Source: a virus. Taken from it: 54,384 nucleotides of DNA. The DNA lies in the IMG/VR virus record IMGVR_UViG_3300031951_000214, positions 1-54,384 of that record; one strand, 5' to 3'. Below, piece after piece: positions 51,801-54,309 of the stretch (its first letter is position 1; every line of letters starts with the position of its first letter). The notes under the pieces are model-generated. The model had not been told where the DNA came from, made no database searches, and was given only the letters and a program-made list of their open reading frames with translations. The position numbers and the translations under genes are program-made.

Positions 51801-53318
51801 TTACACCGTGTAGTACCGCTCAGCGCGGCGACTTTTAAAATACTGAATATCATCAGGTTCGTCGTTTGGCAACCTGATGAAACCTCCCTGACGGAATCTC
51901 GCAAGGGCTTGTGTAGTTGAGTCAACCAAGTCGTCGTTTGTGCCGCTTGGAAAGTCGTTGCACTCCTCAATAACCTCTTGCGCCCATCTGCGGTCCGGTG
52001 CCCATACTATCCCTGAAGAAAACAAGTCAGAGACAGCATTTACACGGGCGATCTTATCCTGTCCTTTACCCGGCGTAAACTCCCCAACAGGCACTCCCAT
52101 GCGTCTAAATTCTTGATACAGAGCTGCTCCGTTGGACTTCTTCTCCACCACAAACGCATCTGGCCCCCACTCTTTGTACTCCTCCAGCACCATCTTCTTC
52201 AGTTCTGGAAACTCCATGCGTTTTTTGATGGCGTTGAGCAATATGATGTTGTAATTGTTCGTGTTCTCATTGAAGAACACGCCCCATGTGGTCAGGGCGT
52301 TGTAGTCAGCGCGGGTGTTGGCTTCTTGTGCGGCGTCCAGACTCATAATAATGAACTCGCAGTTGGGTGGTGGGGCATCTTGATCCCATATCTGCCACCA
52401 CTCCCTTTTTATCAGCGCACCTTCCTCTGATACGGGGTTCTGCATGTACTGGGCTTCCCAGTACCGCACGTCCATGCCAGCCTTTTTGGACAACAACTCC
52501 TCAATCGACCAGAACTCGCCCCACAACGGCTTGTCATTCAATATGGCAGGGAACTCAACGACCTCCCAGTCGTCTACACCCTCTTCTCGACCCATCTGGC
52601 TGATGATCTGGCCTGTCAAATCTAGTTTTGACCACCGAGTCATCACAATGATAATAGCGCCTCCCGGCATAAGACGCTGCAAAGGGCCAGACTGGAACCA
52701 CTCCCAAGCAGGGAGAAAAACATCGGGGCGTCCAGTTTTTGCGTCTTGTTCAGAATGAGGGTCATCAATGATGAAAAGGTCCGCACCACGGCCAGCCAAA
52801 GCGCCGCCAACACCAATTGCAAAGTATTCACCTTGGGCATTTGTTCCCCATCTTGAAGCTGATTTACTGTCAGATTGCAGTTCTACGCCCGGAAAAATGT
52901 CTTTGTAGTTATCTGAACCTACAAGATTACGAACGCGGCGACCAAAATTAACAGCCAAATCTGCTGTGTGAGACGCCATAATGACCTTCTTATGGGGGAA
53001 TTTGCCCAAAAACCATGCTGGCGCAAGATAGGAAATGAGTTCAGATTTGCCATGTCGAGGCGCAATATTAACAATGACACGCTTTTTCTTTCCGTTGGCG
53101 ATGTCTTCGAAGATTTTAGCGAGCCTGCGATGATGCGGGCCAACTTTATAGCCGGGGTAGACGTGATCCGCGAACTCCAAAAGCAAATCTTTGCCCAAAT
53201 TCTGCACAGATTGGGCATCCCAGACCTTGATAAGTTCAAGAATTTTGCGTTTTTCATCATTTGACGCTGTTGGCAACAGGTTTTTCAGAGTTTCTATCTG
53301 TTCCCGTGTAACTTTCAC
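51801..53318 (-). CDS. terL: Terminase large subunit, 505 aa
   Basis: Packaging ATPase-nuclease. Walker A is APRHGKSE (K91) and Walker B is LFIIDDPH (D185-D186), followed by coupling motif MTRW. The RNase H-like nuclease shows SLDAA (D328), VVEKKSNG and DDLVDST (D462, D463, D466). The N-terminal YPGYKVGPHHRRLA is typical of the P22/T4-related branch. It overlaps the small subunit by ATGA. Confidence 0.96.
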   Translation of the reverse strand: MKVTREQIETLKNLLPTASNDEKRKILELIKVWDAQSVQNLGKDLLLEFADHVYPGYKVGPHHRRLAKIFEDIANGKKKRVIVNIAPRHGKSELISYLAPAWFLGKFPHKKVIMASHTADLAVNFGRRVRNLVGSDNYKDIFPGVELQSDSKSASRWGTNAQGEYFAIGVGGALAGRGADLFIIDDPHSEQDAKTGRPDVFLPAWEWFQSGPLQRLMPGGAIIIVMTRWSKLDLTGQIISQMGREEGVDDWEVVEFPAILNDKPLWGEFWSIEELLSKKAGMDVRYWEAQYMQNPVSEEGALIKREWWQIWDQDAPPPNCEFIIMSLDAAQEANTRADYNALTTWGVFFNENTNNYNIILLNAIKKRMEFPELKKMVLEEYKEWGPDAFVVEKKSNGAALYQEFRRMGVPVGEFTPGKGQDKIARVNAVSDLFSSGIVWAPDRRWAQEVIEECNDFPSGTNDDLVDSTTQALARFRQGGFIRLPNDEPDDIQYFKSRRAERYYTV

Positions 53319-53863
53319 CGTACAACCTCAATCATCTCTACGTCTACAGTGCGTTTTTCAAGTTTGGCAAGGGTTTCAAGCAGTTCTTTCTCAACTTCTT
53401 CAATAGACTGCTGTTTGTGCGTGACTTCAGAGCGGCGTTTGAAGGCGTCGACCCCGTCAACTTCCCCTAAAGCGCGCAGTGCAGTGAGCCGAATCTTGGC
53501 GTCGGGGTGGTCTGTCTCGGCCACCAGCTTGTTCACCACAAATTTCTTCAAATCAGCGAGTTCTTTGACCACCAAGGTGTCATGCTGCGCGACCATCCCA
53601 GCCAAATACGCAATTGTGGCGTTTGAGTAGGCGGATAAAGTGGGTACTTGCTTTTGATCGCCCATCATGCTTTGGGCAATTTCGACCGCCTGCTGGCGTT
53701 CTTCGTCATTTGGGTCAATTGGCTCGCCTTTTAAGTCAGCTATGAGCTTGACTGTTCTGGCGCGCATGTCCAACTCTTCGCGTGGAGACAGTTCGGGCAT
53801 CGCATCAGTGGCAGATGCGGGGAGCGGGATATGAGAATCTATCTCTGGAATCAAGTCTTGCAT
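53315..53863 (-). CDS. Terminase small subunit-like protein, 182 aa
   Basis: First gene of the late operon, directly before the large terminase. It is helical throughout, with a central hydrophobic segment (SNATIAYLAGMVAQHDTLVV) and a C-terminal coiled coil (SIEEVEKELLETLAKLEKRT). I assign it from position and type. No clear HTH is visible. There is no Shine-Dalgarno sequence before the ATG at 53863 (the bases there are CCTTCCTCCC on this strand), so the start is uncertain. Confidence 0.72.
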   Translation of the reverse strand: MQDLIPEIDSHIPLPASATDAMPELSPREELDMRARTVKLIADLKGEPIDPNDEERQQAVEIAQSMMGDQKQVPTLSAYSNATIAYLAGMVAQHDTLVVKELADLKKFVVNKLVAETDHPDAKIRLTALRALGEVDGVDAFKRRSEVTHKQQSIEEVEKELLETLAKLEKRTVDVEMIEVVR

Positions 53864-53894
53864 TGGGAGGAAGGTGGCACTCCAAAGTTGACGG

Positions 53895-53903
53895 AATATA
53901 CCA
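53895..53903 (-). promoter_or_regulatory. Candidate extended -10 promoter (TGGTATATT) for terminase operon
   Basis: On the - strand TGG followed by TATATT fits an extended -10 box. It lies downstream of the - strand terminator and about 32 bases before the small-terminase ATG. No -35 box is seen. It could give basal late transcription independent of read-through. Confidence 0.35.
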
Positions 53904-53919
53904 CGTATTTCGACGAGGA

Positions 53920-53960
53920 GGTAGGATTCCTACCCGGGGGGTATTAGGATAAACCCTAAT
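53920..53960. other. Two short hairpins ahead of the late operon
   Basis: GGTAGG/CCTACC (53920-53934, loop ATT) and ATTAGG/CCTAAT (53943-53960, loop ATAAAC) lie side by side between the terminator and the candidate promoter. They may be operator half-sites or RNA stems in the late leader. The arms share AGG/CCT ends. Confidence 0.5.
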
Positions 53961-53976
53961 AGACAAGGAGACGAGC

Positions 53977-54002
53977 AAAAAAAGACCCCCGGGGAGGGGG
54001 TC
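53977..54002 (-). terminator. Intrinsic terminator upstream of late operon
   Basis: On the - strand GACCCCC pairs with GGGGGTC around TCCCC and is followed by seven T. It is the strongest terminator in the window. It lies 114 bases before the small-terminase start and after the candidate late promoter at 54196-54204, so it either insulates the operon or acts as an attenuator. Confidence 0.88.
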
Positions 54003-54065
54003 GAAGGAGAGAGGCAACTGAGAAGGTTGTTGATTGGATACTTATCCAGCAAGACTGTAAACTTA

Positions 54066-54141
54066 ACCAACACGGCTGGGGACTTGTCGTGCGTCCTTCA
54101 ATTAGCGTGGCAACATCAGCCACATCCCCATGCGTGTTGGT
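54066..54141. other. Large stem-loop (structured leader or control element)
   Basis: ACCAACACG (54066-54074) pairs with CGTGTTGGT (54133-54141) and TGGGGA (54077-54082) with TCCCCA (54125-54130), separated by a 2x2 internal loop. Inside, GTGGC/GCCAC (54107-54123) makes a second hairpin with a 7-base loop. The total is 15 outer and 5 inner base pairs. In a - strand transcript from 54196 it would form just before the terminator. Confidence 0.6.
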
Positions 54142-54195
54142 ACACCGTTCCCTTTCGAGCTTTTCATGTTACGTGGTGTCTCCGCGACTTTGGGA

Positions 54196-54204
54196 AGTAT
54201 ATCA
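54196..54204 (-). promoter_or_regulatory. Extended -10 promoter TGATATACT driving late operon (candidate)
   Basis: On the - strand TGA plus TATACT matches an extended -10 and has the same form as the + strand TGCTATACT at 54301. No good -35 is found, consistent with the extended type or with an activator. Predicted start is near 54189, giving a leader of about 326 bases with the stem-loop and terminator. Confidence 0.5.
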
Positions 54205-54300: not shown

Positions 54301-54309
54301 TGCTATACT
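54301..54309 (+). promoter_or_regulatory. Extended -10 promoter TGCTATACT (early, + strand)
   Basis: TGC followed by TATACT is an extended -10 box with predicted start near 54316, 40 bases before the next ATG. If the genome is circular it would transcribe the early half beginning at position 1. Confidence 0.6.

Follow-up and report, generated by a model that had tools for sequence, protein, structure and literature searches.

Layout of the control region

The DNA analysed here (the window) is a linear IMG/VR virus record of 54,384 bases, and the features of its control region and of the adjoining terminase genes are collected in Table 1.

Table 1. Features of the control region and the terminase genes in the window.
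Feature	Positions	Strand	Basis
Divergent early promoter, extended -10 TGCTATACT	54301..54309	+	motif match
Promoter A, extended -10 TGATATACT	54196..54204	-	sequence and relatives
Module S, first of the transcript	54140..54188	-	sequence; compensated hairpin changes
Module Y, scaffold ACCAACACGCATGGGGAT…AGTCCCCAGCCGTGTTGGT surrounding a payload	54066..54141	-	pairing and folding
Module M3, GTTGGTTAAGTTTACAG…GGATAAGTATCC…AATCAAC	54029..54071	-	recurrence elsewhere
CAGTTGCC motif upstream of the terminator	54013..54020	-	recurrence near terminators
Intrinsic terminator, GACCCCCTCCCCGGGGGTC + T7, 7-bp stem	53977..54002	-	shuffle test
Palindrome GGTAGGAATCCTACC	53920..53934	-	conserved in relatives
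Promoter B, TACGTGGTATATT	53895..53907	-	conserved in relatives
GGAG…CTCC, putative small hairpin with the Shine-Dalgarno, before the TerS start codon	53864..53883	-	sequence
First late gene, presumed small terminase (TerS)	53315..53863	-	position
Large terminase (TerL)	51801..53318	-	phrog_38, 341 bits; Terminase_6C

Promoter A, an extended -10 element that an earlier note on this DNA had proposed, is indeed there. The pattern TGNTATAMT occurs twice in the window, at promoter A and at the divergent early promoter, both within one control region; since this count alone is not above chance (2 seen against 1.74 expected) and is weak as a statistic, the support for promoter A is comparative, the -10 being kept at this position in relatives, even amid differing flanks, and reading TGATATAAT in several of them. 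No -35 element was recognised for promoter A, and its transcript is predicted to start at about 54190-54188. The terminator described in the same note is likewise real: 1000 dinucleotide shuffles of that region produced no equal of its stem (54002-53984) with the seven T that follow.

The motif upstream of the terminator has the general form (C/A)GTTGCC, often GCAGTTGCC. Of 168 strong terminators, 24 have it no more than 32 nt upstream (loci include window 54020-54013, L189, L236, L261, L265, L271, L335, L372, L379 and L380), and it accompanies terminators also where no array of the kind described below is nearby. A conserved C-rich block (54264-54205, ending in CACAAATAAC) lies between the early promoter and promoter A; it is found in relatives too, with modules present or absent, and is possibly a packaging or replication site.

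A second promoter ahead of the terminase operon

Relatives were gathered by the large terminase (phrog_38), and 62 of their loci extend far enough upstream for comparison. Of these, 57, corresponding to 52 distinct regions, carry a palindrome with AGGAnTCC at its centre (the remaining 5 loci were left out), and a TATATT-type -10 follows 12-42 nt past the palindrome in every one of the 52, 51 of them perfect. The upstream terminator is present in only 18 of these regions. Promoter B, which had no place in the earlier note, sits past the terminator and directly upstream of the presumed small terminase, and is probably the promoter of the terminase operon. The terminator is likelier to act as an insulator, with terminase transcripts arising from downstream of 53977. 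The presumed small terminase itself gave a weak HEAT-repeat match and no match to PHROG.

The palindrome is perfect in the window, with its centre near -39 of promoter B, and its conservation ahead of terminase genes extends beyond close relatives; it is a possible site of a late activator of promoter B, or a packaging signal. The Shine-Dalgarno GGAG is able to pair with CTCC (53883-53864), and a hairpin before the TerS start is apparently kept in relatives with other sequences, e.g., L102 and L139.

Modules between promoter A and the terminator

In module S, CACC (54178-54175) and GGTG (54146-54143) close a GNRA-capped hairpin (CTC-GAAA-GGG, 54159-54150), for which compensated changes were found in L003, L014 and L098. 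The arms of the Y stem-loop (54141-54125 and 54082-54066) pair at 15 of 17 positions, and folded alone it reaches -34.1 kcal/mol (z = -3.67; equalled by 0 of 200 shuffles). The stem-loop previously reported thus stands, but it is better described as a long stem, interrupted and carrying inner branches, than as a simple 15-bp hairpin. The GTTGG of M3 overlaps the 3' arm of Y, and M3 occurs again in other contexts (L325/L393 and L392), with GGATA/TATCC replaced by GAATA/TATTC, a compensated stem change. Searches with Rfam 15 at curated and loose thresholds (window, L056 and L098) returned tRNA and chance matches only, the Y payload of L098 being a weak tRNA-Sec look-alike below the Rfam threshold. 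A search of the window for tRNAs found none, and the model of the sister module class C gave only a chance-level match there.

Comparison of the relatives indicates that the leader region is a cassette site, at which they differ by whole modules. Between promoter A and the terminator, L003 and L014 hold S only, L004 holds K, L006 holds N and L098 holds S, Y and K, and the close relatives L007 and L008 keep promoter A and the terminator with no module between; yet the TerS-TerL DNA of L003, L004, L006, L007 and L098 is 93-98% mutually identical. In L005, whose TerS-TerL DNA is 99.4% identical to that of the window, a different first module is followed by the window's Y and M3. Other relatives carry a second module site, between promoter B and the Shine-Dalgarno, with up to five tandem modules (L056) and, in L029 and L033, a tRNA-Met. 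At both sites the modules begin about 7 nt past the -10, at the predicted starts. Modularity and swapping are evident from these sequence comparisons.

In L035 the terminator comes first and the module after it, and about 20 relatives have a module but no terminator. Modules and terminator are thus not coupled in the way that an attenuator requires. Upstream of TerS in CRP-901, among the nearest phages in the phage collection, we found an ordinary terminator and, by eye, no module. The joint conservation of stem and terminator in relatives to which the earlier note had looked was not found, the terminator being limited to the 18 regions and close relatives without the stem-loop keeping both promoter and terminator.

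Spread of the modules

Module Y (AACACGCATGGGGAT…AGTCCCCAGCCGTGTTGG), with different payloads, was found in at least 120 IMG/VR stretches, and class C (GGTTAGCGCC…CTGCTTTATGTGA) in at least 120 viral stretches, where Y was found around the matches in alternation with other modules, forming arrays. The viral and the cellular counts for Y were both obtained with its 3' half; among 84,980 cellular genomes, its single occurrence is on a short contig of a Burkholderiales MAG. The 171 sense Y elements, at 133 loci, fall into about 90 payload clusters, several with conserved loops of their own. Of the modules seen in relatives of the window, K, N and J were found again in L163, L155, L185 and others; together, Y and the other classes form tandem, reshuffled arrays ahead of terminase, Cro/YdaS and other genes. 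In records of 30-70 kb, the Y matches fall at one place, or at two close together.

Against the phage collection, BLAST with the module set gave no match, and BLAST with one array gave a 40-base match to a metagenome-assembled phage. No description of such arrays was found in Rfam or in the searched literature, nor did a text search for the module sequences and such arrays return anything relevant, preprints and most subscription journals lying outside the scope of both. The mix-and-match RNA arrays of aquatic phages apparently form a large, undescribed set.

Evidence for structure at the RNA level

In class C, P1 and P2 show strong covariation: 84.5% of cells are paired against 66.5% after shuffling, and double-changed cells number 206 against 82 in shuffles, a value reached by 0 of 500; slid structures all score far lower. 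The invariance of P4 and of the loops is imposed by the search pattern, and in looser relatives found with the model (L134, L230 and L309) P4 pairs are changed. The Y scaffold consists of a conserved outer stem, a C-C/A-G internal loop and a variable payload. As the Y elements were picked by pairing, their paired percentages are inflated; the kinds of change are less affected by this bias, and they alone count as evidence: inner pairs show exchanges such as G-C to A-T, and a T-G pair near the inner end, present in 152 of 171 elements, would read C-A on the other strand, so that the structure appears to have been selected on the sense-strand RNA. At the level of sequence comparison, sense-strand RNA structure is thereby established for both class C and Y. 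About a quarter of the Y elements lie inside some ORF of at least 110 aa.

Placement of the arrays and their tRNA company

Among class C modules that stand first in their array, 26 of 76 begin 6-7 nt past a -10 hexamer (about 0.6 expected per offset), so these modules probably begin at the transcription start (+1); the promoters in question are of the sigma70 type. The longest ORF downstream shares the strand of the array in 99 of 117 loci, at a median of 153 nt, and lies on the opposite strand in 18. The first downstream proteins (66 distinct) are most often Sf6-type small terminases (13), followed by DUF5856 proteins (6) and YdaS/Cro-type regulators (4-5). Clear terminators follow 8 of 128 arrays, several within 25 nt and some in related contexts (window, L098, L294, L306, L308, L331, L372 and L384). 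Most arrays therefore read straight into a gene, and the stand-alone form is the minority.

A canonical tRNA lies within 350 nt of 12 of the 133 arrays, and each time tRNA-Met(CAT) is included, many of these with the 1x72 mismatch of initiator tRNAs; in 79 control regions no canonical tRNA was found. Two further arrays, L098 (614-686) and L336, share a Y payload with a canonical T arm, called by ARAGORN as a tRNA of odd or unknown kind, the inner Y stem serving as acceptor stem. Array modules of L325 and L372 have tRNA-like D and T arms, with a long insert replacing the anticodon arm.

Interpretation

At a probability of about 0.6, we read the stretch 54204-53977 (minus strand) as a stand-alone RNA array unit, with the terminase transcribed from promoter B, and as a member of a widespread phage system. 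Promoter A would drive a three-module structured RNA, S-Y-M3, that runs into the intrinsic terminator, and promoter B, downstream, would transcribe the terminase operon separately. Across the system, a common Y stem scaffold with many payloads would alternate with other conserved RNA modules, exchanged as cassettes that stand downstream of a promoter and ahead of the operon's first gene, or run into a terminator of their own. This structural part of the reading is likely to hold and is much surer than the function. The array RNAs, we infer, would be made, be stable and act in trans, and they may be counter-defence or host-takeover RNAs, i.e., decoys, mimics or replacements of host RNAs. Such a role, argued by analogy, is put forward tentatively; it would explain the dispensability of the modules, their diversity and the company of initiator-like tRNAs, and it is preferred mainly because of the tRNA link and the analogy with phage tRNAs acting against anticodon nucleases.

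The best rival is put-like processive antitermination: modules folding as the transcript emerges would bind RNA polymerase and carry it through terminators, that at 54002-53984 among them. The putL and putR RNAs of HK022, of about 70 nt with two stem-loops, act as antiterminators with no protein needed, putL adjoining its promoter on the downstream side (PMC9378689). The modules are likewise structured phage RNAs of about that size, those of class C often lie at +1, and terminase and Cro/YdaS operons have arrays at their start. The earlier note, in proposing a novel antiterminator or put-like RNA, was right that an unrecognised RNA element is involved, and the frequent +1 position leaves a put-like activity some chance. 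Nevertheless, we consider it unlikely: promoter A and the terminator persist in close relatives that have no module, most module-bearing relatives have no terminator to pass or have it before the module, promoter B bypasses it, and up to five different modules in a row, from dozens of classes, are beyond what antitermination needs. Furthermore, HK022 has one element per operon, made of two adjacent stem-loops, whereas Y and class C have one outer stem with inner branches, and the modules, of many classes with multi-branched folds, stand in tandem arrays.

Protection of the 5' end or control of translation, by stable 5'-terminal structures that slow mRNA decay, is somewhat less likely still. 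The +1 start with a paired 5' end and the same-strand gene after most arrays would suit it, but the loops of classes C and X are strongly conserved, unlike those of a simple cap, inner modules lie far from the 5' end, and in the window a terminator separates array from gene.

A late-operon attenuator relieved by a phage protein, as the earlier note proposed, is very improbable. Promoter, structured leader and terminator do stand in line, and the note was right that the leader is structured and ends at a genuine terminator; the conserved promoter is promoter B, in 52 of 52 regions, L007 and L008 keep the terminator without any leader structure, and no alternative antiterminator pairing has been shown. 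Late attenuation is therefore set aside. Self-spreading DNA cassettes, of the kind seen in integron attC arrays or in MITE-like hairpins, are marginally less probable again. The inverted-repeat ends (CCAAC…GTTGG) and the tandem, reshuffled order would fit them, but strand-specific wobble pairs and compensatory changes point to selection on RNA, placement at +1 also speaks against them, and no recombinase happened to be noticed. A packaging RNA like the phi29 pRNA was rejected, because modules are missing altogether from some close relatives and number as many as five, all different, in others.

Comparison with known phage RNAs and significance

Small stable RNAs, T4 RNA C and RNA D for example, occur within phage tRNA clusters. 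Like these, the array modules are small structured RNAs from one transcript, some adjoining true tRNAs; unlike them, they are mostly not tRNAs, their stem ends can be exchanged, and they share a Y scaffold that takes many payloads. GOLLD and ROOL, often found near tRNAs, are single long RNAs with Rfam models, and are similarly large structured RNAs of phages and environmental DNA, whereas the modules have no Rfam match. The structures of these ornate RNAs have been described (PMC12286853). Resistance to host anticodon nucleases has been proposed as a role of phage tRNAs, in a study which found that phages generally avoid tRNA-fMet, where VapC-LT2 cuts the anticodon (PMC10264068). There too, small phage RNAs are proposed to act against a host RNA-targeting defence, and some arrays hold an initiator-like tRNA-Met, but the nuclease-resisting RNAs of that study are true tRNAs only.

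At somewhat less than even odds, the locus may be a new kind of phage accessory locus, one of combinatorial structured-RNA arrays, with a shared scaffold and interchangeable payloads, starting from the +1 of an operon and serving as a toolkit against RNA-targeting defence or for host takeover. Phages are well known to swap protein cassettes against their hosts; an extensive repertoire of swappable elements consisting of folded RNA alone would be new. The arrays occur commonly among uncultivated aquatic phages but in almost no cellular genome, and Rfam has none of them; they thus offer many concrete RNA families to be tested for binding partners, so that the question of what the small stable RNAs of phages do becomes directly testable.
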